A DNA stretch of 39,426 nucleotides, from contig JAQUJJ010000019.1 of assembly GCA_028681035.1 (NCBI GenBank), forward strand, positions 1-39,426. Reading direction: 5' to 3'. The position numbers and the translations under genes are program-made. Each line of letters opens with the position of its first letter. Positions within the stretch are counted from its first letter, which is position 1. Source of the DNA: Candidatus Cloacimonadota bacterium (lineage in GTDB: Bacteria > Cloacimonadota > Cloacimonadia > Cloacimonadales > Cloacimonadaceae). Below are positions 3,506-24,397 of this stretch, piece after piece. The notes under the pieces are model-generated. The model was given only the letters and a program-made list of their open reading frames with translations, was not told the origin of the DNA and ran no database searches.

Positions 3506-5080
3506 ATGAGAATGATTATAAAGATTTTAGTGGCAGTGCTTCTTGGTATAGCTTTGTTTTCGTGTAGCAGTAAAACTACTACCCAGAATGATGAACAAAT
3601 AGCCACGCCAACATTTTCTCCAGCCGGGGGTACTTACGACGAACCTGTTGACGTACTCATATCATGCTCTACTTCTGGAGTAAATATCCGATACACCACA
3701 GATGGTGCCGACCCAACAAATGAATCTCAAGCTTATAGCGGATTTGTGCATATTACCGCAAGCAGCACCCTTAAAGCTAAGGCTTTTAAGTCTGGATGGA
3801 TATCAAGCGCAGTTCAAACTGCCAATTACATATATACAACAATGGCACGTCCCAGCATCTCACCTTCAGGAGGCGTGTTTAACGCTCCACGAACAGTAAC
3901 AATATCATGTACAACTCCTGGAGCACTGATACGCTACACTGTGGACGGAAGTGATCCAGTAGCAACATCTACCTTATATTCTGTCCCATTTCAGATCAGC
4001 AGTTCCACTACCCTGAAAAGCAGAGCGTTTCTTGAAGGAAAGCCTCCCAGCGAAGTTACTACGGCTGTTTTTGTAATGCAATTACTGAAACCAATATTCA
4101 CCCCCCCAAGTGGACATTATGCAATTGGGCAGACAGTTAATATCTCCAGTTCCACTAGTGGAACTCAGATAAGACATACAACAGATGGTACAGAGCCTAC
4201 AGAAGAATCAAATCTATATTCCAATCCTCTAAATGTTTCATCCAATATGGTAATTAAAGCTACAGCCTTTAAAAGTGGTTGGCAGCCTAGCCAGGGAGAA
4301 ACATCCTATTACATTATCAATCTTGCCGACCAGATGCAATTGGTAAATGCAGGAACATTCAACAACGGTAGTTCAAATGTTACCCTCTCACCTTATTATA
4401 TTGGCAAACGCGAGGTAACTGAGCTGGAGTGGCATTATATCATGCCGATTAGTGGAGAAATTGACATTGAAAATGAAAAACCCATCACTGGACTCCATGA
4501 AGAGACAACCGAAGCAGTAACATGGGGTAAAGCAATAGAGTATTGTAATCGGAGAAGCTTAGTTGAGGGATACCAACCATGTTACAACTATGATAATCTG
4601 GGCGTTAATCCTGATTTGTGGCCTGTTGGATGGAATTCTGCCGTTAATCACGTATTGTTAACATGCAATTGGAAAGCTAATGGATATAGACTGCCCACTG
4701 AGATGGAATGGATGTATGCGGCACAAGGCGGTATTCCATCCAGCACTTATACATACAGTGGCTCCAATGCTATTGATGAAGTAGCTTGGTATAATGGTAA
4801 TGCAACTACCGTGAACAATGTAGGTACTAAATTGCCAAACGAATTGGGTCTTTACGATATGAGCGGTAATGTGTGGGAGTTCTGTTGGGATATCTATAAC
4901 TATCAGTACTCTACAACCGACGTGCTTAACCCTGTGGGACCCAGTACTGGAAGTCATAGAGTATTGCGTGGCGGAAGCTGGAGCAGCGATCCCAGCAATT
5001 GCACTAATGCCCGTAGATTTTACACCGATACGAACATAGAAAGTAATTTCAGTGGATTCCGTGTAGCAAGAAAAGGATAA
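3506..5080 (+). CDS. Lipoprotein with three chitobiase-C-like repeats and an FGE/SUMF1-type domain
   Basis: The 524-residue product starts best at the ATG at 3506, preceded by AGAGGA at 3495-3500; an in-frame TTG at 3479 would add nine residues before the signal peptide. The lipoprotein signal is MRMIIKILVAVLLGIALFSC (lipobox LFSC). Residues about 30-270 hold three repeats of the chitobiase/beta-hexosaminidase C-terminal type, each with 'PxxxG-Y/F' and IRYTTDGADPT-like blocks. Residues about 285-524 are a formylglycine-generating-enzyme/sulfatase domain (PF03781): GYRLPTEMEWMYAA, then ELGLYDMSGNVWEFCWD, and RVLRGGSW...GFRVAR at the end. Such surface proteins use this C-type-lectin-like fold for binding; enzymatic FGE activity is not implied. 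The C-terminal 35 residues resemble diversity-generating-retroelement variable regions (see findings). Confidence 0.88.
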   Translation: MRMIIKILVAVLLGIALFSCSSKTTTQNDEQIATPTFSPAGGTYDEPVDVLISCSTSGVNIRYTTDGADPTNESQAYSGFVHITASSTLKAKAFKSGWISSAVQTANYIYTTMARPSISPSGGVFNAPRTVTISCTTPGALIRYTVDGSDPVATSTLYSVPFQISSSTTLKSRAFLEGKPPSEVTTAVFVMQLLKPIFTPPSGHYAIGQTVNISSSTSGTQIRHTTDGTEPTEESNLYSNPLNVSSNMVIKATAFKSGWQPSQGETSYYIINLADQMQLVNAGTFNNGSSNVTLSPYYIGKREVTELEWHYIMPISGEIDIENEKPITGLHEETTEAVTWGKAIEYCNRRSLVEGYQPCYNYDNLGVNPDLWPVGWNSAVNHVLLTCNWKANGYRLPTEMEWMYAAQGGIPSSTYTYSGSNAIDEVAWYNGNATTVNNVGTKLPNELGLYDMSGNVWEFCWDIYNYQYSTTDVLNPVGPSTGSHRVLRGGSWSSDPSNCTNARRFYTDTNIESNFSGFRVARKG

Positions 5081-5091
5081 AACTTTAACTG

Positions 5092-5170
5092 TCGTAGGGG
5101 CGGTCTCTGAACCGCCCTAAAAACCGCCACACAACTTGTCATAAGGGCACTTCGGAGAGTGCCCCTACGA
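5092..5170. repeat. Small palindromic element with terminal inverted repeats
   Basis: A 79-bp segment is bounded by TCGTAGGGGC (5092-5101) and its exact reverse complement GCCCCTACGA (5161-5170). Inside are two hairpins: GGGCGGT with AACCGCCC near 5098-5117, and GGGCACT-tcgg-AGAGTGCCC near 5144-5164. The 'CGTAGGGGC...GCCCCTACG' form is a common dispersed intergenic repeat type in many bacteria. It lies just after the FGE gene and could also act as its transcription end. The remaining bases to 5325 hold no gene that I can support. Confidence 0.7.
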
Positions 5171-5326
5171 ACTCGCTTATCCTTCATCCGCAACTTGGGC
5201 GTGTAACCCTTAAAAGTATCCACCCAAGAATCACTGCCTCCTTATTTTGTGTAACCCGAGGCAAGCGCAAAACCTGCTAAATATCGAACTGAGATTTAAA
5301 CAGTCTCTAAGGGATATTGCGAAACC

Positions 5327-5367
5327 TGATAGATTTATGTTGACACGGAAGTAACTCCCAATATATT
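5327..5367 (+). promoter_or_regulatory. Probable ssrA promoter
   Basis: TTGACA at 5340-5345 is followed after 16 bases by TATATT at 5362-5367; the mature tmRNA would begin about 30 bases downstream at 5398, leaving a short 5' leader to be processed. The preceding bases give GATTTATGTTGACA, the same extended -35 string seen at two other places in the window. Confidence 0.6.
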
Positions 5368-5397
5368 GGATAGTATAGATCTTTAACTAAGCGTATA

Positions 5398-5751
5398 GGG
5401 GGTGAAATGGTTTCGACAGGGAACCAGGGTGTGAGTGATGCATGTCGGAGACGCTTTTTCCACTCCGTTAACAAGAGAGCACACAAAATTAATTGCAAAT
5501 AACAATTACTCCTTAGCAGCATAAGCTGCTTTCGTTCAACCTCTTCGTGCCGTCGGGAGGGGATTGGGCGTCGAAACAGTACGGATGCTGCGGAAGCGAT
5601 TGCCGATAATTTCCGCTTAAGACTATTGGCTGGGCTTTCGGGGGTCTGATTGTCTTTACCCCAAAAGCTGAGACTTAAACGACAACTAAACATGTAGATT
5701 TGCTTGCAATCGGTTTTTTGGACGCGGGTTCGATCCCCGCCACCTCCACCA
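5398..5751 (+). ncRNA. ssrA: Transfer-messenger RNA (tmRNA)
   Basis: The 354-base gene begins GGGGGTGAAATGGTTTCGAC, a canonical tmRNA 5' end, and finishes with a T-arm (GGGTTCGATCCCC) and an encoded CCA at 5749-5751. The 5' GGGGGTG pairs with CACCTCC near the 3' end to form the acceptor stem (one G-U). The tag reading frame starts at the resume codon GCA at 5495 and reads ANNNYSLAA before TAA at 5522. This is nine encoded residues, one fewer than in E. coli, with the proteolysis signal LAA retained. tmRNA with SmpB rescues stalled ribosomes and tags the nascent chain for degradation. It is one-piece, not permuted. An 8-bp repeat array begins only 7 bases after the CCA, and no ordinary terminator is seen. 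Confidence 0.97.
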
Positions 5752-5758
5752 GGTTTGG

Positions 5759-5930
5759 GTTAGCGGGTTAGCAGGTTAGCAGGTTAGATGGTTAGCAGGT
5801 TAGCAGGTTAGCGGGTTAGCGGGTTAGCAGGTTAGCGGGTTAGCAGGTTAGCGGGTTAGCAGGTTAGATGGTTAGCAGGTTAGCAGGTTAGCAGGTTAGC
5901 AGGTTAACGGGTTAGTTAGAAGGTTAATGG
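5759..5930 (+). repeat. Left array of an 8-bp tandem repeat (GTTAGCRG)
   Basis: Starting at GTTAGCGG (5759) there are about 18 head-to-tail 8-mers, mostly GTTAGCAG or GTTAGCGG with GTTAGATG variants at regular places. The array closes with a diverged unit that is the left half of a perfect 29-bp inverted repeat (5902-5930). The partner array lies beyond the four-helix-bundle gene in opposite orientation. Confidence 0.95.
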
Positions 5931-5961
5931 CTTTTAGCGAAATATGAGATGAGAGTTTTTT

Positions 5962-6315
5962 ATGATGCACACAGAATTGGAAGTTTACAAATCCAGTATG
6001 CTCTTGGTTAAAGAGATTTATGCAATTACAAGTGAATTCCCCAAAGACGAGTTATGGGGTTTAACTTCTCAAATGAAAAGAGCAGCGATTTCCATTCCTT
6101 CAAACATAGCAGAAGGTTGTGGCAGAAAGACACCTAAGGAACTACTCAATTTCCTCAATATTGCCCTTGGCTCTCTGGCAGAATTACAAACTCAGCTTGA
6201 TATTGCGCTAATGTTAGGCTTTATTATTAATCAAGAAAAAGCAACTATTTGCAAGAACTTATCACTATCCGTAAAGCGGCAACTCTTAGGACTTATCAAA
6301 GCAAACACCCATTAA
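5962..6315 (+). CDS. Four helix bundle protein (23S rRNA intervening-sequence protein family)
   Basis: The 117-residue product matches the PF05635 family (S23/IVP; TIGR02436). Visible family features are 'LEVYKSSMLLVKEIYAIT' at the N-terminus, the conserved block QMKRAAISIPSNIAEGCGRK at about residues 38-57, then a helix with NIALGSLAELQTQLDIAL. The all-helical fold forms pentameric barrels, and the family is related to the Avd accessory proteins of diversity-generating retroelements. The biochemical role is not established. ATG at 5962 (MMHTELE) follows a T-run with only a weak GAGATGAGAG upstream as ribosome site; a second ATG at 5965 is equally possible. The stop codon lies within the right inverted repeat. 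It has no operon partner on either side. Confidence 0.93.
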   Translation: MMHTELEVYKSSMLLVKEIYAITSEFPKDELWGLTSQMKRAAISIPSNIAEGCGRKTPKELLNFLNIALGSLAELQTQLDIALMLGFIINQEKATICKNLSLSVKRQLLGLIKANTH

Positions 6316-6453
6316 CCTTCTAACTAACCCGTTAACCTGATAACACATAAGCAATCCAACTATAAGCACCCCGCCTAACCCGTTAACCTGCTAACCATCT
6401 AACCTGCTAACCCGCTAACCTGCTAACCATCTAACCTGCTAACCCGCTAACCC
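6309..6453 (-). repeat. Right array of the 8-bp repeat, inverted
   Basis: The right half begins with the 29-bp perfect inverted partner (6309-6337), which contains the stop codon of the four-helix gene. About 39 unrelated bases follow, then about nine units of CYGCTAAC/CATCTAAC from 6377 to 6453. Read on the minus strand this reproduces the left array, including the position of a GTTAGATG variant every four units. Confidence 0.93.
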
Positions 6454-6465
6454 AAAAGAAATCCC

Positions 6466-6493
6466 TTTACAAAATCTGCCCCACATAAATAAT
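6466..6493 (+). promoter_or_regulatory. Possible rpsO promoter
   Basis: TTTACA at 6466-6471 and AATAAT at 6488-6493 are 16 bases apart and lie 30-57 bases before the rpsO start. This is a reasonable but unverified sigma-70-like pair; the position directly after the repeat array suggests rpsO is transcribed independently of the element. Confidence 0.35.
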
Positions 6494-6522
6494 GACCTTA
6501 CTAAAATCATCTGGAGGATGAA

Positions 6523-6792
6523 ATGCCGTTAACACCTGAGGCTAAAACAGCTATCATGGTAGAGTTTAAACTCCATGAATCAGACACTGGCTCACCGGAA
6601 GTGCAAGTTGCGATGCTCACCCGTAGAATCAAAGATATTACCGAGCATCTAAAATTGCATGCGAAAGACTTTTCCACCCGGCGTGGTCTATTGAAACTGA
6701 TCGGGCAACGCAGACGCCTTCTTGATTATTTGAAGCGGAAGGAAATAAATCGTTACCGCGAAATAATCAAGGCACTTGGTATCAGAAAGTAA
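6523..6792 (+). CDS. rpsO: 30S ribosomal protein S15
   Basis: The 89-residue product is full length for S15, which binds 16S rRNA in the platform early in 30S assembly. Family signatures are clear: '[22 protein letters not shown]', '[28 protein letters not shown]' and a basic C-terminus ending LGIRK. The start ATG follows TGGAGGATGAA (GGAGG at 6511-6515). It lies upstream of pnp in the widespread rpsO-pnp arrangement, separated by a strong stem-loop at 6820-6860 which may divide or process the transcript. No anomalies. Confidence 0.98.
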
Positions 6793-6819
6793 CAAACTCG
6801 CCAAGATATTATGACTAAC

Positions 6820-6860
6820 AAGGAAAAGTGGATCAGCAGAACTGGTGATCCACTTTCCTT
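6820..6860 (+). terminator. Stem-loop between rpsO and pnp (terminator or RNase III-type site)
   Basis: AAGGAAAAGTGGATCA (6820-6835) pairs with TGATCCACTTTCCTT (6846-6860) with a single bulge and a 10-base loop. Only a weak T-rich stretch (ATTTACG) follows, so termination may be partial. In enterobacteria a comparable rpsO-pnp hairpin is cut by RNase III and used by PNPase for autoregulation; that such control exists here is inference. Confidence 0.75.
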
Positions 6861-6975
6861 ATTTACGCTAAAATCAAACTGCTACGGGAGTAATTAGCAA
6901 TAAGCTAAGAAGTTGTAACAAACTTTTCAGCCTATTGCTTCTTCTCCCCGCAGTGAAAACAAATAAGGAGAAGTT

Positions 6976-9198
6976 ATGCATAACTTCAACATTACCCGCC
7001 GTGAAATGGATTTTTGCGGTCGCCATCTTATCGTAGAAACTGGCAAAATGGCTAAACAGGCAAATGGCAGTGTTTTTATCCAATATGGTGAAACCGCTGT
7101 ACTAGTTACCGCCACCATGTCTAAAGAAGCCTCTTTGAACCAGGATTTCTTTCCTTTAACCGTAGATTACATTGAAAAGATGTATGCTGCTGGTAAAGTC
7201 CCCGGTGGTTTCTTCAAGCGTGAAGCTAAGCCTACCACAGATGCCACTTTGATGGCACGTGTTATCGACCGTTCCATCCGCCCTTTATTTCCCGATGGAT
7301 TCCGTAATCAGGTACACGTTGTTTTAAACGTGCTTGCCTTCGATGGTGTTACTGATGCAGCCACACTAGGTGTGTTTGGAGCTTCTTTAGCTCTTTCCAT
7401 TTCGGATATACCTTTTCATGGACCTATTGCCGGAGTTACCGTAGGGTACATTGATGGTGAATACGTTGTAAATCCCATATTCAATGAAATAGCAGAGAAA
7501 TCTAAGATGAATCTCACCGTAGCTGGTGGACGTAAATCTATTGTAATGATAGAATCTTCCGCTCACGAATTGAGCGAAGAGATTATGCTTGATGGCGTTT
7601 ACGCAGGGCATGAAGAGATTAAAAAGCTTGTTGCTTTGCAAGACGATTTTGTAGCAACATGTGGCAAAGCTAAAGTTGATGTTATACTGCCGATTATGCC
7701 CCAAGAAATAATGGACAAAGTGGAAAACACCTGTGGTGCTAAAATCGCTACTGCTGCTATCATTCTTGGTAAGCAGGAACGTCAGGATGCCTTTGATGCT
7801 GCTGAAGCTGAGATGGTGGAGAAATATACAGCCGAGAATGAAGAAGAGTTCTTGGAGAATGAAAAGACATACAAAGCAGCTTTTGAAGAATTATTACGTC
7901 GTTATGTTCGTGAATCTATCCTCACCAAGCACCATCGTGTTGATGGGCGCGGTCTGGATGATATCCGTGATATCACCTGTGAAATAGATATTCTCCCCCG
8001 TGTACATGGTTCAGCCTTGTTCACACGTGGCGAAACCCAATCTTTAGGCACTGTTACCCTAGCAGGTGGCACTGCCGAGCAGGTTATAGACGGGCTTGAA
8101 AGTGAATATAAGAAAAGCTTTTATCTGCACTATAACTTTCCTCCTTTCAGCGTTGGCGAAGCCGGAAGAATGGGACCCACAGGTCGCAGAGAACTAGGTC
8201 ATGGCAACCTTGCTGAGCGCGCATTAAAAGCAGTTCTTCCAGATAAGGAACTCTTTCCCTATACCATGCGGATTGTAGCCGAAACATTAGAATCAAACGG
8301 TTCTTCATCTATGGCTTCCATCTGTAGCGGATGCTTAGCAATGATGGCGGGCGGAGTGCCGATTAAAGCTCCTGTAGCTGGTATTGCCAACGGACTTATT
8401 ATGGAAGGCGAAAACTTCGTAGTGCTCACAGACATCATGGGCTTGGAAGATCACCTTGGCGATATGGATTTCAAGTGCGCCGGTACCAGAGATGGCATCA
8501 CTGCCATGCAGATGGATATCAAGATTGAAGGCATCACCAAACACATTATGCGCATCGCTCTGGAAAAAGCCAGAGTAGCACGCAATAGCATATTAGACAT
8601 CATGGCAGATTGTATCGCCGAACCCAGAGAAGACCTATCGGCAAGTGCACCCAGAATCGAATCCTTCAAGGTTCCTATCGAGAAGATAGGCGAGATTATC
8701 GGGCCTGCTGGAAAGATGATTAAATCTATCATCGAAAGTTGCCAAGTGCAGATAGACATCCAAGATGACGGCACCGTGCGCATCCTTTCACCAGACAAGA
8801 TTTCAATAACTAAAGCTAAAGACATTATCAAAGGCATAGCTATTGATCCTGAAGTTGGTGAATTGTTCGAAGGTCCCGTTACCAGGATAGAGCCTTATGG
8901 AGTATTTGTTAAAATCAACGGTAGCAAGGAAGGCATGGTTCACGTGTCGCAAATGCACACCAGCCGCATTAACCATCCTTTGGATATGGTTAAGATGGGT
9001 GATATTGTACATGTGAAATCACTTGGAATGGACAAAGGAAAGCTTTCACTTACCATGAAAGGCGTGGAAGGGAACCCAGAGCCAGACCCCAATGCTCCCA
9101 AAGACCGTCCCCAAACTTCATATCCGCCCCGCCGCGATGACCGCGGTGGAGATCGTGGACGCCATGATGGTGGAAGAAACGATAGATTCCGTAGATAA
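6976..9198 (+). CDS. pnp: Polyribonucleotide nucleotidyltransferase (PNPase)
   Basis: This is a 740-residue 3'-5' phosphorolytic exoribonuclease of mRNA decay. Domains in order: RNase PH 1 (about 12-145, with GKMAKQANGSVFIQYGETAV), a helical linker, RNase PH 2 (about 325-535, with RVHGSALFTRGETQSLGTVT and the catalytic-site block SNGSSSMASICSGCLAMM), KH (about 555-615, with IGEIIGPAGKMIKSI) and S1 (about 620-690, with GPVTRIEPYGVFVKING). The C-terminal 40 residues are a low-complexity tail rich in Pro, Arg, Gly and Asp (RRDDRGGDRGRHDGG), longer and more RG-rich than in many homologues and possibly an RNA-contact extension. The start is supported by AAGGAG at 6964-6969. It follows rpsO by 183 bases. 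Confidence 0.98.
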   Translation: MHNFNITRREMDFCGRHLIVETGKMAKQANGSVFIQYGETAVLVTATMSKEASLNQDFFPLTVDYIEKMYAAGKVPGGFFKREAKPTTDATLMARVIDRSIRPLFPDGFRNQVHVVLNVLAFDGVTDAATLGVFGASLALSISDIPFHGPIAGVTVGYIDGEYVVNPIFNEIAEKSKMNLTVAGGRKSIVMIESSAHELSEEIMLDGVYAGHEEIKKLVALQDDFVATCGKAKVDVILPIMPQEIMDKVENTCGAKIATAAIILGKQERQDAFDAAEAEMVEKYTAENEEEFLENEKTYKAAFEELLRRYVRESILTKHHRVDGRGLDDIRDITCEIDILPRVHGSALFTRGETQSLGTVTLAGGTAEQVIDGLESEYKKSFYLHYNFPPFSVGEAGRMGPTGRRELGHGNLAERALKAVLPDKELFPYTMRIVAETLESNGSSSMASICSGCLAMMAGGVPIKAPVAGIANGLIMEGENFVVLTDIMGLEDHLGDMDFKCAGTRDGITAMQMDIKIEGITKHIMRIALEKARVARNSILDIMADCIAEPREDLSASAPRIESFKVPIEKIGEIIGPAGKMIKSIIESCQVQIDIQDDGTVRILSPDKISITKAKDIIKGIAIDPEVGELFEGPVTRIEPYGVFVKINGSKEGMVHVSQMHTSRINHPLDMVKMGDIVHVKSLGMDKGKLSLTMKGVEGNPEPDPNAPKDRPQTSYPPRRDDRGGDRGRHDGGRNDRFRR

Positions 9199-18262: not shown

Positions 18263-21200
18263 TTATTTCACCAATACACGGATACCTTCCGAGTGAGCAG
18301 TGAATTCCGGGGCATACATGCACTGAATGGAAGTGATACCATTGGAGAAATCTCCCTTATTGGTAACCCACAGAGGATACTCGAAAACATAAGTCCCTTT
18401 GCGAAGATACTCGATAAAGAAGTTTGTGGCTGCGTCGCCGGTGGCTTCGTAATAAACTAGCCCATCCTGCCATTTGGTTCTGGATAAAACGTTAATAGGC
18501 TCAAAACCGGCACTGCGCATGTCTTTCATATGTACATATTCCATGTCTCTATCGCTTCGTAGCTCAATACGCACGATAACTCTATCTCCTATGCTCAATT
18601 GTGATTTGTCGTTAACAGGGTCAAGGACTTTGCCCGTATCGGTTATCCTCTCTATGAACAGCTTTTTATTCAGTTTCAGAGGAGTCTCTGCGGGAGTTAT
18701 CTTATCCAGATTCTCAAAGTACTGCCAGTATAATGCACCCCAGCTTGATACCCGGTTCGGGTTGCTAACTGTAACCTGCGCCATTTGGGGGGAGATGTCG
18801 CTGCCAGACCATGAAGTTTTAAAATAGCCCGTTCCGGCTTCTACAGATGCTCCATCCAACTTATAAGGATCCAGCTTGCTGCCACCGATGGTGATTTCTG
18901 CCAACTCTTCCGTATTCAGCCATTCGGTGCCAGAAATTAGCAGAGCATAACAGGCTTCCGCTGTGGCTTTGGTGGTTTTCCAATTGGTAGTCTGCTTCTG
19001 CTTCAGCAGCCAGGTGCGCATTTCGTCCACAGAAGCTGTATTAGAGCCAATCTCACTGAAAGCTTCGATCATTAAGGATTGTGTTTCAATTGGTGCCTGA
19101 TACCAAAACCAGCCTCCATCGTTTTTCCACCACATACCCATTTCTTCATTATGCAGGGCACATTCTTTAAGGGAAGCAATTATCTTAGCCGGGGTTACCT
19201 TGTTGCCGTCCCTATGCCTGGCAAGGGCTATCAAACCCTGACCGAAATTGTCCTTATTCTGCCAGAACTTATCCGCTTGAGTTTGGAAATATTGCACTGC
19301 CACCCTTACGTCTTCCGGGATTGCAACATCCTTAAAAAAGCTGCGCGTATAAAGATAGTGCATTTCCATGTAGCCCAAATGATCTAAATCAAGGTCGCTG
19401 TGTTTCTTAAGATATTCGTAATCTAGCAGAATCTGCTTGTCTAAATATCGTATTGCGGGTTGCACCATAGCCCATACTTTGGGGTCGTTCCTTATGGCTT
19501 TTACACCCAGTTTATCAAGATGCCCAAAGCCTTCCACTATGTATTGGGTAACCCACCAGGAATCCTGCATACCTTGCCACCAAGACCAGGCACCGCTGGT
19601 ATTCTGGTTCTTCTGTAGTTTGGCAAGGGCAGAGCTGTATTGATTCGCCATAGTATTCAGATCAAACAACAAGCCTATTCTCTGTTTGCTTTGGGATTCA
19701 TTCTTTGCATCCATTACCCAGGGTGTTTCCTGTAATAGCACGGCTTTCAGCTCTTGATTCTTTTCCAGATTGGAGAGTAGAGCAGTGGAATTTGGTGTGT
19801 CTCTCCAGGACTCGAACACCTTTTTAATGCGGGGATTGGAATTGGCGATGTGGGTAGCCAGACTATTGGCATAGAATCGGCTGAATATCTGTTCGTTACA
19901 TTCGTAAGGATACTCCATCAAATAGGGCAAAGCCTGCACTGCATACCAGGCAGGATTGGAGGTGTATTCCAAAGTAAGCTTGTGGTTCTTGATAGTGGAG
20001 GAACTGCCACTATCCTTAAGTTTCTTAAACTCGAATGACTTGGTAGAGTTACCGCTAACCGGCAAAGGCAGGCTTTCAGTTACAAGCATACGGTTGCTGA
20101 GGATGGGCAAGGTGCTCTCCTCGCCGTCGGAGAAGTCCCCGGCTTTGGCAACTACTCTGTAGGTCACGGCACTGATGTCGAAAGGGATGCTCAAGTTCCA
20201 GCTAAGCACTGTGCTTTCGCCTTTTTTAATTGTGAATGGCTGCTGTGCATTGTTTAGCCCAAAGCTTTTATCCACAGGTTCCATGCTTAACGCATCAAAC
20301 AGAAATAGCTGGCAGTTGCCGGAGATATCGGTATCTTCCAGACAGCTTAGCTTGCTGCTGAATGTGATCTTGTCTCCCTCACGGAAAAAGCGCGGGGCAT
20401 TGGGAATAACCATTAAAGGTTTCTGCGTTACGGTAGTGTTCTCGGTAGTCCCGATCTGGAAATCCTTGCTTAGAGCCAGCGCACGGAACTTCCAGCGGGT
20501 TAGTGCCTCCGGAACCGTAAAGACAAAGCTAACTTCACCATTTTCGTCGGTACGCAATTCCGGATAGAAGAATGCTGTCTCAGCAAAATTAGTTCGTGCC
20601 TGAACGGTGGAGAGGTTTTCCTGCGGGAGAGGATGGGGTGTGTTACCCAATCCGGGAACAGCAGGTGGTGTATCGTAAGGGACGAAGTTTAAGGGTCTGT
20701 CATCCAGCGTGGCAGAGAGACGTTGACTACTTGTAGAATATATATTACCAATCTGGCTTATAGCTTTATCATATGCTACCATATCAACTTCATCAGTACC
20801 TAAATTATCACTCATATCCATCTGACGGGCAGAGCCTATTCTGTCCTTTTGTACCATTCTTGATCTGTAATATCCCACATTGTAGTAATAACTGTACCAA
20901 TTAAACGAATCATACCTTCTCTCTGGAATACCAGAATAGTAATACGGATACGCAAACACACGAAGACCTATAGTCCGGGAATAAGCTCTGTTAGACCACC
21001 CACAAGTCTTGGAAACCTTGCCGTACACACTGGCAGTCCATTGGCTGTTGCGAAAAGCGTCCAGGGAAGCATCATACATGGATGACAGAACTTCGGCTGT
21101 TACCTTCCCCCCCGTATGGTCATTCAGTTTAAGTCGCCATTCCTCTTTCTGTCCCGGCAGCAGCTTGTTGCGGAAGGTCATGTATTCTATTGTCAATTGT

Positions 21201-24200
21201 TTATTAGTCCAGGGAACTGTGATCTCCTGAGCGTGAGTGTATAGTCTGTTATCTCTCACAAAGGTAAAGTGAACATAAAAACTGCCCCTGTCTTTCTCTT
21301 CCACAGGGATGGTGATTAAACGTTGATTTCCGTTTAGGCTAATGCGCTTACTCTCCACTATGGCATGATCTTTTTCCACTTCATAGAGCACTGATACGCC
21401 CGAATACCCGCTCCCAATCAGAATTACTGCATTCTCTCCCGGTTCGCAAGTAGTTTTTACGGGAACAAACCAATCCGTTTTAGGATAGGGCAGCATATGG
21501 GATGAAGAGTTGTAAACCGTGAAGTATTTGCTTACCTTCACTTCCTGTTGTTTGTATGTGGCAGTAGCTTCCAAAAGGTAAGTCCCCGGTTTCCAAGTTC
21601 CAATATCACTGATAACTAGGGGTTCACTATTCTTAGTGTTAAAGCTGCTGCTATGGACGGTTCTCAATACCTGCCAGGTGCTAATATCCCCTTCTTTGCC
21701 ATATATATCATTGGGGAACAACTTCTGATATTCAGATTGCTCAAGGTAATTGCGGTCGGGGGCATCCCACACACGTTTCCTCTGCATGTTTGCCGGAGAT
21801 TTAAGCTGCTTAATAGCGATAGTTCCTTTTACGGCTATGGGTTCGTTGCTAAGATTAGTGGTTTTAATAGGTATAGCTAGCCGCCGCTTGCTGGAATCTA
21901 TATTGTCCGCCAATTCGGGATTAAGGATAAGCTCCTGCTCTCCAATGTTTAAGGCGAGTACCCTACTGCGTGTTTCCCCATTAATATCGGTTACGTCCAC
22001 ACTTACAGTATAAGTGAAATAGGGATTGTACTTAAAGAGAGCACTTTCATCTCCACTCGCAAGGAAGGTGAGACTGAAATCTCCATTGCTATCTGTTACA
22101 GCCTTTCCCTTGGCTATTTCCTTTTGTGGCGTATCAGGGCTTGCTCCCCACCACCAATACCAATAGGGGTACTTAGGCTGGCGGTATATTCTGTAGCTAA
22201 CAGTTGCATTATCTACGGGAACCCCAGCATAGGAAAGTGCCTTACCCTTCACTGTAACATACTGATTCAGCTTATAGCTTTCCTTTGGTTTATCCAGGCT
22301 TACCTCAAACTTTGGACGCTTGTATTCCTCCACGCTAAAGCTAGCAGAGCCAGATTGGGTTTGAATGGTCATGTTCCCTGTCAGAACGCCTTGTGGTGCC
22401 GTAAACATACAATTGAAAGTGCCATACTCGTTAGTTTTCAGGCTGTGCCTTGCTATTTCCTGTTGATTTGCATCGCGTAAACTTACATAAACATCCACAA
22501 TCGGCAGCAATTTATTGTGCTTTCCCCCATTGGTTTCGTAGAAAACCCCCTTTACATATATGCTTTGTCCCGGACGGTAAAAAGAGCGATCTGTAAAAAG
22601 CAAACACCGTGAGGTGGGATAATTAGAGGTCTGAGAAGTTTGAGCATAATAGTCTAATATCTGCAGGGTGTCTGCTCCGCTGCTTATCGACATTCTTAAA
22701 TAACTACCCACATCTTTATAATCAAACTTGATGATCCCCTCTGGATTAGAGGTTCCAGACCAGTATAACTGATATGTATAATCTTTCATCGTGCGTGTCT
22801 GATTGTAAACCAGAATCGTAGCTCCCCTAATCGGTAAACCGGTATTCCGGTTAGCGATGAGAATGGATTTATCAGCCTTGTTGGGGGCAAGATATGATAT
22901 CTCTGTGCTGTTAAACAAGCTATAGCCAAGAATTGAGTTGTGAGCAAGCGGTTCGTCTCCATCATTTGCCGCGATGATGATATAGTTCCCCATTGGCAAG
23001 GCTGTTACCGGAAGTTCATAGGAATGCACTCTATAATCTCCTTCGTTGTTTATGGGAAAGGAATTACTCCAATAAGGCTCATCATCCATCAGTTCTTTCA
23101 CCTTCTGCTGTCCATTCCTATCCCACAGATATTCAAGACTATATTCTTTAGCCAGTAAAGAGGGATAAGGAATCTTGTAAACACTCAGCTTAACCCCGCT
23201 TAGGTTCTTTACGCTAAGCAGCACTTTATTGGGCGTTTGGGGAAGGACAAACTGCTCCATTACCATATTTAGCACCGGGATAGTAATCTGTTTGTCTAGG
23301 GCAATACACGATTGCCCGCCAAAGCTGTTAGGAAAAGCCGTTACGGCTTCCCTGCAAAGCTCGGTACTTAGTTTATAATGCCATCGGTAATCTTCAGATT
23401 CGGTTGGCTTGTATTTTCCTGCCAGGCTGTAATAAAGTGAAGCCAGCTTGAAGGTTGCATACGCCGAAGCAGGATTAGTAGAATCCTTACTTTGCTTCAG
23501 CCTCAGAGCAGCCTCATAATACTCATCCCGATTGGGTAGCTTACAATTATAACAAACAAAATCCAAACGATCCAGATCAACTTCTATCAAGGCAGAAGGG
23601 TCTGCATCGTCCAGATGAAAGCTGATCAAATCCTGATATAGCAAGGCAGCCTGATACTTTAACGATAAAGTATCGGGGGTGGAGATAATCATATTCACAA
23701 AACCTGCAGCAGGCTGGAAGTACTTGGTGTCGGTAATGCTAAATTCCTCCGGGGGCAAAATTAGTCCGGATTCGTCATTTACGTAGAAATCAAGGGCACG
23801 GTGAGCAAGGAAATCGTATAAAGTTGGACGTAGCAGCCTTTCAACTGCACCACCGTTGAATACAAGAGCGGGGTAATCGGCAATATTGAACTTCTGCAAT
23901 TCCAGGGGCTCTCGCAAGGACAACTGATACTGTCTGATAGACTCTGTTACTATGGTATCCAGATCCCAGGTTGCAATATCATCCCGCACATAATTTATGG
24001 TTGCGCTGCGCTGGCTGTAACGCCAGCGATTCCCCTGATAATAACCCCAGTATAGCTGTGCCAGCATGCTGTGCATAATCGCGGCTGCGGGCAGAGAAGC
24101 CTCTGCTAACTTAGCCTGCACCAATGTTATTGCCTTTTGAGAGGAGAATTCCTCTATCTGTTGTTGAATAGTTAATTTGTAAACAAGGGCTTTAATCTGC

Positions 24201-24397
24201 TGATCGATCTTCTTATCTATAATAGCAGCTTCATACAGGGAATCTACCTTAGTTTCCATCGATTTGGGTAATCTGTCATTCTGCAGTTTGCCGATTTCCT
24301 TCCAAGCAGTTTCATAATTGAATGGATTAGGGGTAACAGCAAATAGACAGGCGGTAAGCCCGCAAACCAAGACTAACAACATCATTTTGATACTCAT
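18263..24397 (-). CDS. Alpha-2-macroglobulin family protein with intact thioester
   Basis: The 2044-residue envelope protein is of the bacterial A2M type (YfhM-like), thought to trap foreign proteases. The signal is MSIKMMLLVLVCGLTACLFA; LTAC fits a lipobox, but signal-peptidase I cleavage after LFA is also possible. A helical N-terminal part (about 25-370) resembles TPR-like regions. Macroglobulin domains follow, including 'RSFYRPGQSIYVKGVFYE' and 'FSVEEYKRPKFEV'. A bait-like low-complexity stretch (about 1145-1260) contains a tyrosine-rich segment (YSYYYNVGYYRSR). The A2M core has 'TRWKFRALALS', and thioester Cys1500 lies in YECNEQ (CxEQ intact), then the TED domain with GAWSWWQG. No pbpC partner is adjacent. 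The ribosome site is AAGGAG. The neighbouring C25 protease is notable. Confidence 0.95.
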   Translation of the reverse strand: MSIKMMLLVLVCGLTACLFAVTPNPFNYETAWKEIGKLQNDRLPKSMETKVDSLYEAAIIDKKIDQQIKALVYKLTIQQQIEEFSSQKAITLVQAKLAEASLPAAAIMHSMLAQLYWGYYQGNRWRYSQRSATINYVRDDIATWDLDTIVTESIRQYQLSLREPLELQKFNIADYPALVFNGGAVERLLRPTLYDFLAHRALDFYVNDESGLILPPEEFSITDTKYFQPAAGFVNMIISTPDTLSLKYQAALLYQDLISFHLDDADPSALIEVDLDRLDFVCYNCKLPNRDEYYEAALRLKQSKDSTNPASAYATFKLASLYYSLAGKYKPTESEDYRWHYKLSTELCREAVTAFPNSFGGQSCIALDKQITIPVLNMVMEQFVLPQTPNKVLLSVKNLSGVKLSVYKIPYPSLLAKEYSLEYLWDRNGQQKVKELMDDEPYWSNSFPINNEGDYRVHSYELPVTALPMGNYIIIAANDGDEPLAHNSILGYSLFNSTEISYLAPNKADKSILIANRNTGLPIRGATILVYNQTRTMKDYTYQLYWSGTSNPEGIIKFDYKDVGSYLRMSISSGADTLQILDYYAQTSQTSNYPTSRCLLFTDRSFYRPGQSIYVKGVFYETNGGKHNKLLPIVDVYVSLRDANQQEIARHSLKTNEYGTFNCMFTAPQGVLTGNMTIQTQSGSASFSVEEYKRPKFEVSLDKPKESYKLNQYVTVKGKALSYAGVPVDNATVSYRIYRQPKYPYWYWWWGASPDTPQKEIAKGKAVTDSNGDFSLTFLASGDESALFKYNPYFTYTVSVDVTDINGETRSRVLALNIGEQELILNPELADNIDSSKRRLAIPIKTTNLSNEPIAVKGTIAIKQLKSPANMQRKRVWDAPDRNYLEQSEYQKLFPNDIYGKEGDISTWQVLRTVHSSSFNTKNSEPLVISDIGTWKPGTYLLEATATYKQQEVKVSKYFTVYNSSSHMLPYPKTDWFVPVKTTCEPGENAVILIGSGYSGVSVLYEVEKDHAIVESKRISLNGNQRLITIPVEEKDRGSFYVHFTFVRDNRLYTHAQEITVPWTNKQLTIEYMTFRNKLLPGQKEEWRLKLNDHTGGKVTAEVLSSMYDASLDAFRNSQWTASVYGKVSKTCGWSNRAYSRTIGLRVFAYPYYYSGIPERRYDSFNWYSYYYNVGYYRSRMVQKDRIGSARQMDMSDNLGTDEVDMVAYDKAISQIGNIYSTSSQRLSATLDDRPLNFVPYDTPPAVPGLGNTPHPLPQENLSTVQARTNFAETAFFYPELRTDENGEVSFVFTVPEALTRWKFRALALSKDFQIGTTENTTVTQKPLMVIPNAPRFFREGDKITFSSKLSCLEDTDISGNCQLFLFDALSMEPVDKSFGLNNAQQPFTIKKGESTVLSWNLSIPFDISAVTYRVVAKAGDFSDGEESTLPILSNRMLVTESLPLPVSGNSTKSFEFKKLKDSGSSSTIKNHKLTLEYTSNPAWYAVQALPYLMEYPYECNEQIFSRFYANSLATHIANSNPRIKKVFESWRDTPNSTALLSNLEKNQELKAVLLQETPWVMDAKNESQSKQRIGLLFDLNTMANQYSSALAKLQKNQNTSGAWSWWQGMQDSWWVTQYIVEGFGHLDKLGVKAIRNDPKVWAMVQPAIRYLDKQILLDYEYLKKHSDLDLDHLGYMEMHYLYTRSFFKDVAIPEDVRVAVQYFQTQADKFWQNKDNFGQGLIALARHRDGNKVTPAKIIASLKECALHNEEMGMWWKNDGGWFWYQAPIETQSLMIEAFSEIGSNTASVDEMRTWLLKQKQTTNWKTTKATAEACYALLISGTEWLNTEELAEITIGGSKLDPYKLDGASVEAGTGYFKTSWSGSDISPQMAQVTVSNPNRVSSWGALYWQYFENLDKITPAETPLKLNKKLFIERITDTGKVLDPVNDKSQLSIGDRVIVRIELRSDRDMEYVHMKDMRSAGFEPINVLSRTKWQDGLVYYEATGDAATNFFIEYLRKGTYVFEYPLWVTNKGDFSNGITSIQCMYAPEFTAHSEGIRVLVK

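Follow-up and report, generated by a model that had tools for sequence, protein, structure and literature searches.

Inverted arrays of short units enclose PF05635 genes: a candidate free-standing variant of rRNA intervening sequences

Introduction

A gene of the PF05635 family, located between the genes of tmRNA and ribosomal protein S15 in a Cloacimonadota genome, is enclosed in a long hairpin the arms of which are built from inverted arrays of one short unit, and complementary flanks accompany most of the family members scored in Cloacimonadota and Cyanobacteriota. That PF05635 genes in inverted-array hairpins form a real class is practically certain. The explanation we prefer, at a probability of roughly 0.55, sees in the element an array-armed, free-standing variant of the intervening sequences (IVSs) of 23S rRNA, i.e. 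a small mobile and probably selfish module carrying the PF05635 gene in the loop of its stem. The S23p/PF05635 proteins are without known function (PMC4990558). Our search of the literature, which covered open-licence PMC papers, returned no link between PF05635 genes and inverted short arrays, and the accessible parts of PMC4692102 and PMC4990558 draw none.

With genes found mostly within self-complementary, lineage-following arrays, the PF05635 family gains a concrete candidate ligand, its own stem, and rRNA intervening sequences become tied to a wider class of mobile elements, widespread and little described. The same elements represent a natural system where two separate arrays stay complementary during sequence turnover, and part of the unexplained short-unit arrays in several bacterial groups may be accounted for by them.

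The hairpin between tmRNA and rpsO

The window, i.e. the whole stretch of 39,426 nucleotides that was analysed, contains a tmRNA gene at 5398..5751 on the forward strand (ARAGORN; Rfam RF00023, 180 bits; tag ANNNYSLAA) and, downstream and co-directional with the PF05635 gene, rpsO for ribosomal protein S15 (6523..6792, +), both lying outside the element. The left (5′) array occupies 5757..5906 (+), its G-rich strand being the coding one; read from 5759, its 18 octamers GTTAGNNN comprise 16 GTTAGCRG and two GTTAGATG units and are followed by GTTAACGG. An inner left arm (5900..5930, +) forms a perfect inverted repeat of 31 bp with an inner right arm (6309..6339, −), which holds the stop codon (6313-6315) of the 117-aa four-helix-bundle gene (5962..6315, +), and about nine complementary octamers make up the right (3′) outer array at 6375..6453 (−). 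The original prediction had the 18 GTTAGCRG-type units, the start of the array seven bases past the tmRNA CCA, the nine or so complementary units beyond the gene and the stop codon within the right arm, all of which were confirmed; the inverted repeat is perfect as claimed and measures 31 bp instead of 29. Growth by 32-bp blocks, proposed from a supposed recurrence of GTTAGATG every four units, fails, since these are units 4 and 14 of the left arm, ten apart, and the four-unit spacing holds in one right-arm interval only (units 3 and 7).

The 22-mer GGTTAGCRGGTTAGCRGGTTAG, with up to two mismatches allowed, has 25 matches, all within the arrays (mean 0.00 in 100 shuffles), and the longest perfect inverted match in the stretch compared extends over 34 bp (5851-5884 / 6414-6447). 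Folded as RNA, positions 5752-6456 yield −301.5 kcal/mol versus −183.6 ± 6.3 for 20 shuffles, with the ORF enclosed by the stem. The PF05635 gene is the sole ORF of at least 90 aa between the arms, and an Rfam scan of 5000-7000 gave tmRNA as the only match, placing the element outside any 23S rRNA gene. Elsewhere, the window encodes a PNPase with 93% identity to the HGW-Cloacimonetes-3 enzyme, and an ORF of 2044 aa is present at 18263-24397 (−).

The encoded protein matches PF05635 (23S_rRNA_IVP) with E 2.9e-34 (117.9 bits, cut-off 33.8) and TIGR02436 with 116.6 bits (cut-off 24). Its solved relatives by sequence are 2gsc (E 9.6e-24), the structure of the Xanthomonas campestris protein XCC0516 (PMC4990558), and 2rld (E 0.0013). 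Resemblance of PF05635 to Avd, the accessory protein of diversity-generating retroelements (DGRs), has been described (PMC10053308); for the window protein the Avd models stay below cut-off (bAvd 20.4 of 40 bits, NF033474 20.9 of 80 bits), and no reverse transcriptase was detected among the ten window ORFs scanned. Its assignment as a DGR Avd was rejected on these scores.

Complementary flanks of PF05635 genes

PF05635 is present in 15 of 17 related genomes, in 101 of 124 Cloacimonadota genomes with up to 30 copies each, and in 94 of 194 genomes sampled from the phylum Cyanobacteriota. To assess the arms, each upstream flank was aligned locally with the reverse-complemented downstream flank, the threshold being a score of at least 14, and the genes taken were mostly the best-scoring family matches rather than a random draw. 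In a first set (30 genes from related genomes, the window gene and L001) 26 of 32 reached the threshold, as counted off the list, with a median of 20.75 for own flanks against 8.5 for swapped partners, and none of 215 length-matched control ORFs did so. With flanks of 400 bp the threshold was reached by 60 of 79 Cloacimonadota genes (three skipped, short flanks) and 41 of 49 Cyanobacteriota genes (one skipped), compared with 12 of 574 control ORFs, all of them from Cloacimonadota. Exclusion of the near-copies of one cyanobacterium (G249) and of the twin L095 leaves 59/78 and 31/38, respectively, or 92/118 together with two genes of an unplaced bacterium, and the expectation that other members of the family would be flanked by inverted arrays is borne out in most cases. 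Against the main explanation stand the 19 of 79 and 8 of 49 genes below 14, some having weak arms and others none.

Three of the 12 high-scoring controls turned out by position to be PF05635 genes themselves (L017, L021, L224). Eight of the other nine were read: two overlapping ORFs belong to a single locus that has a GxxExxY-like gene (by eye), one is another GxxExxY gene, one a Y1 transposase, and four are others. Inverted complementarity was chosen as the measure because detection of tandem arrays alone is too strict on short or degenerate arms; it finds an array on either side of 40/79 and 27/49 genes and of 21/574 controls.

Plasmid-borne genes behave likewise, scores from 15 to 31.5 being obtained for Gemmatirosa and four cyanobacteria (five of six examined, out of 24 records). 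On the Pseudanabaena plasmid pPg_01 (L358, 1486-1845) a PF05635 gene with 7-mer arrays is situated between cas6 and cas4. An Azospirillum plasmid copy (L355) resides inside a 23S rRNA gene (RF02541, 2461 bits); it scores 10 with the first ORF start and 23.5 over 36 columns with the search started further in, and its arms are of the same short-unit kind as those of the free-standing elements, thus making a bridge from these to classical intervening sequences. For comparison, the 23S IVS of Coxiella is excised by RNase III, its stem measures 28 bp, and variable heptamer repeats precede the start of S23p (PMC4990558). The family match and the array-armed Azospirillum IVS uphold the view of the window element as a free-standing relative of 23S rRNA intervening sequences, and we regard this kinship as very likely.

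Array units, protein lineage and recurrence at new sites

The array units, mostly 7-9 bp long, follow the protein lineage. Over 91 arms the 4-mer cosine is about 0.10 for proteins less than 45% identical, 0.53 at 65-80% and 0.88 above 80% (Mantel r 0.27, 0/2000 permutations); unlike units in close proteins, L089/L105 (72% identity, cosine 0.04) and L204/L205 (77%, 0.17), are exceptions counting against the main explanation. Pooled 5′ arms are poor in C (A 31.6, C 9.7, G 34.2, T 24.4%), and arms are far more alike on the same strand than on the reverse one, implying that the structure has polarity relative to the gene.

One genome (G014) contains two copies with 96% identity across 429 bp whose flanks are unrelated. 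Among 23 similar pairs compared many share homologous flanks, which denotes the same insertion, and ten lack homology in both flanks (L080/L095, L080/L082, L082/L114, L167/L174, L165/L187, L152/L162, L084/L172, L202/L203, L101/L103 and L086/L096); the arm cosines of the first eight of these range from 0.59 to 0.94. It is therefore highly probable that array and gene move together, recurring at unrelated sites as one mobile unit. Neither a target-site duplication nor an exact insertion junction was established, which counts against the main explanation. Near-identical copies in two cyanobacteria, G249 and G317, have additional inverted ends in common, which lie further out and look MITE-like, suggesting that another transposon may carry the module there; the G249 near-copies seem to be spread by these ends, so that mobility in this genome need not be the module's own. 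Of these near-copies (L138, L189-L197, L199, L200) most lie within a MITE-like element with the ends TAACTGACGTTACGCA / TGCGTAACATCAGTTA (by eye), and in several of them the PF05635 gene harbours another MITE-like element bearing inverted 7-mer arrays. Downstream (3′) of the gene at L095 (G014:C4), several CCTAACACCT array blocks are interleaved with GGCCGACGCAGTCGGCC palindromes.

The tmRNA-rpsO site in related genomes

Screening of the relatives L001-L060 with ARAGORN placed tmRNA close upstream of rpsO in L001, L002, L003, L005, L008, L010, L011, L014, L017, L019 and L021; in L004 it is 2.9 kb away from rpsO, and no tmRNA was called in the rest of these loci. One call, 4918-5437 in L001, was dropped as having a mis-called end after the sequence had been read. 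Of the 12 sites obtained with the window included, five carry the gene in inverted arrays (window, L001, L017, L019, L021), two a gene-less hairpin of short units (L002, with 7-mers, and L003), and five neither gene nor hairpin by eye (L005, L008, L010, L011, L014). The empty sites anticipated by the original prediction, as well as gene-less ones, do exist in related species. In L011 (5095-5408) the tmRNA-rpsO spacer contains a direct duplication of 157 bp (152/157 identical), which is single in its near relative L014.

The five tmRNA-site proteins fall into one group in the tree of 121 PF05635 proteins (100% of 200 bootstraps; ultrafast bootstrap 100 and SH-aLRT 52 for an alignment with few columns), so that probably one old insertion took place; apparently it was then inherited, lost or cut down to a gene-less hairpin. 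The PNPase tree requires three changes for the occupied sites and pairs L017 with L021, in disagreement with the PF05635 tree, which sets L017 closer to the window, so that some exchange between lineages may have occurred. Since the five genes are one group stemming probably from one insertion, and the other PF05635 genes retrieved are not tmRNA-site members of it, the suggestion of tmRNA as a mechanistic partner found no support. Array units differ among the species occupying this site (by eye GTTAGCRG, GGTTAACA-like, GATTAGCA, GGGTTAAT and GTTAATGA), and no fixed element ends were seen by eye across them. When the five pairs of arms were swapped in all combinations, the own partner was best in only 3/5 rows and 4/5 columns, which also counts against the main explanation.

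Arrays without the gene

That arrays can persist after loss of the gene or occur independently of it follows from L002, L003 and one genome with a 2.25-Mb chromosome (G018); these gene-less arrays, like the two in the PF05635-free genome G045, count against the main explanation. In 1.2 Mb of the latter 34 arrays of period 9 were found, 23 of which, read off the list, share the GGTTGAGAR/GGTTTAGAR unit of its PF05635 locus at 767.6-768.1 kb; two of the 23 are this locus itself, and of the arrays in this genome many are unpaired and others belong to large gene-less palindromes. Counting periods 7-9, it has 41 arrays in 0.8 Mb (51 per Mb), compared with 3.7 per Mb in samples of PF05635-free Cloacimonadota (two arrays, 535 kb), 4.5 per Mb in samples of 20 PF05635-bearing genomes (one array, 222 kb) and 4.9 per Mb in a third set (three arrays, one being the L019 PF05635 locus). 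The contrast between PF05635-free and PF05635-bearing samples was dropped, the events being too few; arrays are rare outside G018, which makes this genome exceptional. Palindromes longer than 1 kb on C1 of this genome (592380-593800 and 1605200-1606650) combine inverted 9-mer arrays on the outside with REP-like repeats nested within (AGCCCGNNAGGGCGA...GCGTAAGCCCCTCG) and yielded no PF05635 gene; nested inverted repeats also surround a Y1 gene of G018. Of the 17 period-11 arrays in 1.2 Mb, 15 belong to two 11-bp families, AACACTTCCGT and AAGCAATGGGT (e.g., at 295918 and 364457 of C1), neither of which was seen at the PF05635 loci read.

Such arrays invite a reading as passive repeat decoration, in which slippage and template switching would grow inverted arrays between genes and the PF05635 gene would be a bystander. 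The solo and paired arrays of G018 in places free of PF05635, the gene-less hairpins at the tmRNA site, the two arrays in the PF05635-free genome G045 (L272) and the published dispersed, often inverted heptamer arrays of Xanthomonas (PMC4692102) speak for it; yet arrays are rare outside G018 and complementary flanks are found at most PF05635 genes, the units track the protein lineage and reappear together with the gene at new positions, and control ORFs are almost never complementary (0/215, 12/574). We consider this reading quite improbable.

Another gene occurs in comparable hairpins. In Cloacimonadota, 22 of 33 PDDEXK_3 (GxxExxY) genes (one more skipped, short flank) score at least 14, with arm units such as CACRGAGAR (by eye). 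The loci concerned are L304-L333, L288 (8707-9097, −) and L225 (13828-14197).

Orientation, arm mismatches and gene counts

A simple rule was used to call the neighbouring ORFs. The PF05635 gene shares the direction of its upstream neighbour at 91 of 113 loci and that of its downstream neighbour at 95 of 113; at loci with both neighbours in one direction, it lies in sense 82 times and antisense 9 times, same-site relatives being kept in. The bias agrees with expression driven by host transcripts, the situation in 23S IVSs, where the stem is removed by RNase III (PMC4990558). It is also in line with an element acting purely at the RNA level, where selection for a long, RNase III-removed RNA stem would keep the arms complementary with no DNA copying; the very stable RNA fold of the window element, the 23S copy of Azospirillum with the same arms and the published case of an IVS being excised by RNase III (PMC4990558) agree with this as well. 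Upkeep of RNA pairing would, however, predict an excess of G-U-compatible mismatches between the arms, and there was none at 92 loci, where 131 G-U-compatible stand against 168 incompatible transitions (84 vs 111 in Cloacimonadota, 47 vs 56 in Cyanobacteriota; p 0.037 in the opposite direction), so that copying at the DNA level is favoured and RNA-level compensatory selection was set aside. The gene-less hairpins (L002, L003) and the long unpaired arrays of G018 are, besides, arrays outside an IVS role, and the RNA-level alternative appears unlikely.

Since the genomes are related, their assemblies incomplete and up to three zeros possibly genomes left unsearched, it is only a lead that PF05635 counts per genome correlate, over 121 genomes, with those of Y1_Tnp (rho 0.57; 0.52 after genome size) and PDDEXK_3 (0.51; 0.44) and show no such relation to RVT_1 (0.10; size-corrected −0.02) and DDE_Tnp_1 (0.10); with three omitted genomes restored (n = 124) the values are 0.57, 0.50, 0.13 and 0.10, respectively. 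The Y1 correlation is weaker (rho 0.30) in the 63 genomes up to G063, near G001, and shared ancestry or one kind of mobile load may be behind it. General mobile load was dropped, DDE_Tnp_1 counts being uncorrelated. One might think of a REPtron-like system in which the arrays are dispersed by a Y1 (HUH) transposase that acts on hairpins of single-stranded DNA and the PF05635 gene is cargo or cofactor. PF05635 counts following Y1_Tnp instead of DDE_Tnp_1 or reverse transcriptase, the array family dispersed alone in G018 with the unit of one PF05635 locus, and the Y1 gene within nested inverted repeats of the same genome would suit it; the element itself is devoid of a Y1 gene and the genomes behind the correlation are related rather than independent, which leaves this option improbable.

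A retroelement is more improbable still. Here the Avd-like protein would bring the hairpin RNA to a reverse transcriptase supplied in trans, and fold-back priming would copy one arm into the other; matched arrays would be explicable in this way, and the sense bias and the resemblance of PF05635 to Avd (a weak bAvd match; PMC10053308) are compatible with it. Reverse transcriptase in trans was dropped given the uncorrelated RVT_1 counts, and 50 of the 101 PF05635-bearing genomes, including G116 (30 copies) and G121 (22 copies), both of which were searched, have no RVT_1 match, their assemblies being possibly incomplete. Of the original suggestion that mobility proceeds "through RNA or replication slippage", the route by reverse transcription finds no backing, with PF05635 counts unrelated to RT counts and no wobble bias among arm mismatches, and slippage is still plausible for array growth.

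Discussion

According to the explanation we prefer, the IVS-like module would settle in transcribed spaces in sense orientation and be expressed from host transcripts, and RNase III could cut off the stem, as it does in 23S IVSs, leaving the insertion harmless; for such predicted processing the chances seem about even. The arms would be kept complementary by DNA copying from arm to arm on folded-back single-stranded DNA, slippage lengthening an array and hairpin-templated correction matching its counterpart, and not by RNA selection on every base pair; the absence of wobble bias makes DNA-level copying rather likely. The PF05635 protein, Avd-like and arranged as pentameric four-helix bundles in a solved relative, may bind its own hairpin and aid persistence or movement, although the putative binding could equally prove wrong. 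Help from a Y1 (HUH) transposase supplied in trans is conceivable and rather doubtful.

These observations can be joined in a broader and more tentative picture, to which we give somewhat less than even odds. Inverted-array hairpins would represent a general class of bacterial mobile DNA having 23S IVSs as one special case, with PF05635 and the unrelated PDDEXK_3/GxxExxY nuclease fold as alternative genes; the arms would renew themselves by hairpin-templated copying while their unit diverges toward lineage-specific "addresses", and they would spread by a single-stranded DNA route of the Y1/HUH type, leaving gene-less hairpins behind.

Comparison with known systems

Intergenic 7-mer arrays have been described for Xanthomonas, where dispersed heptamer arrays are often inverted (70 and 75 inverted pairs in two genomes), for Nostoc, where only a few are paired (PMC4692102), and for Beggiatoaceae with their TAACTGA arrays (PMC4679880). 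They are like the arrays reported here, the difference being that the accessible parts of PMC4692102 and PMC4679880 do not tie them to PF05635 genes. Likeness to Avd of diversity-generating retroelements is remote (bAvd 20.4 bits, NF033474 20.9 of 80 bits), the scores being far under cut-off and the ten window ORFs scanned containing no reverse transcriptase.

REPtrons consist of a RAYT Y1 transposase gene flanked by inverted REPs. They resemble the present elements in placing a gene between inverted repeats and, as regards the one genome G018, in the repeat being also dispersed alone, and differ in that here tandem 7-9-mers take the place of REP hairpins and a PF05635 gene that of the Y1 transposase; with no Y1 gene between its arms, the window element was rejected as a REPtron. 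Complementary arms of 7-mer repeats are also known from the P6b of cyanobacterial tRNA-Leu introns, which forms hairpins of heptanucleotide repeats; there, they belong to a group I intron that has no PF05635 gene.

The closest relation is to the rRNA IVSs, e.g., of Coxiella and Leptospira. With them the window element shares the PF05635/S23p gene and the position of the ORF within stem-forming inverted repeats, i.e. in the loop of a long stem. In contrast to them it is located between genes and has arms of up to about 150 bp made of a tandem unit, and in free-standing elements the units vary by lineage and many copies accumulate in some genomes. Being outside rRNA, the element is IVS-like and not an rRNA IVS, and we class it as a variant of the intervening sequences rather than a member.
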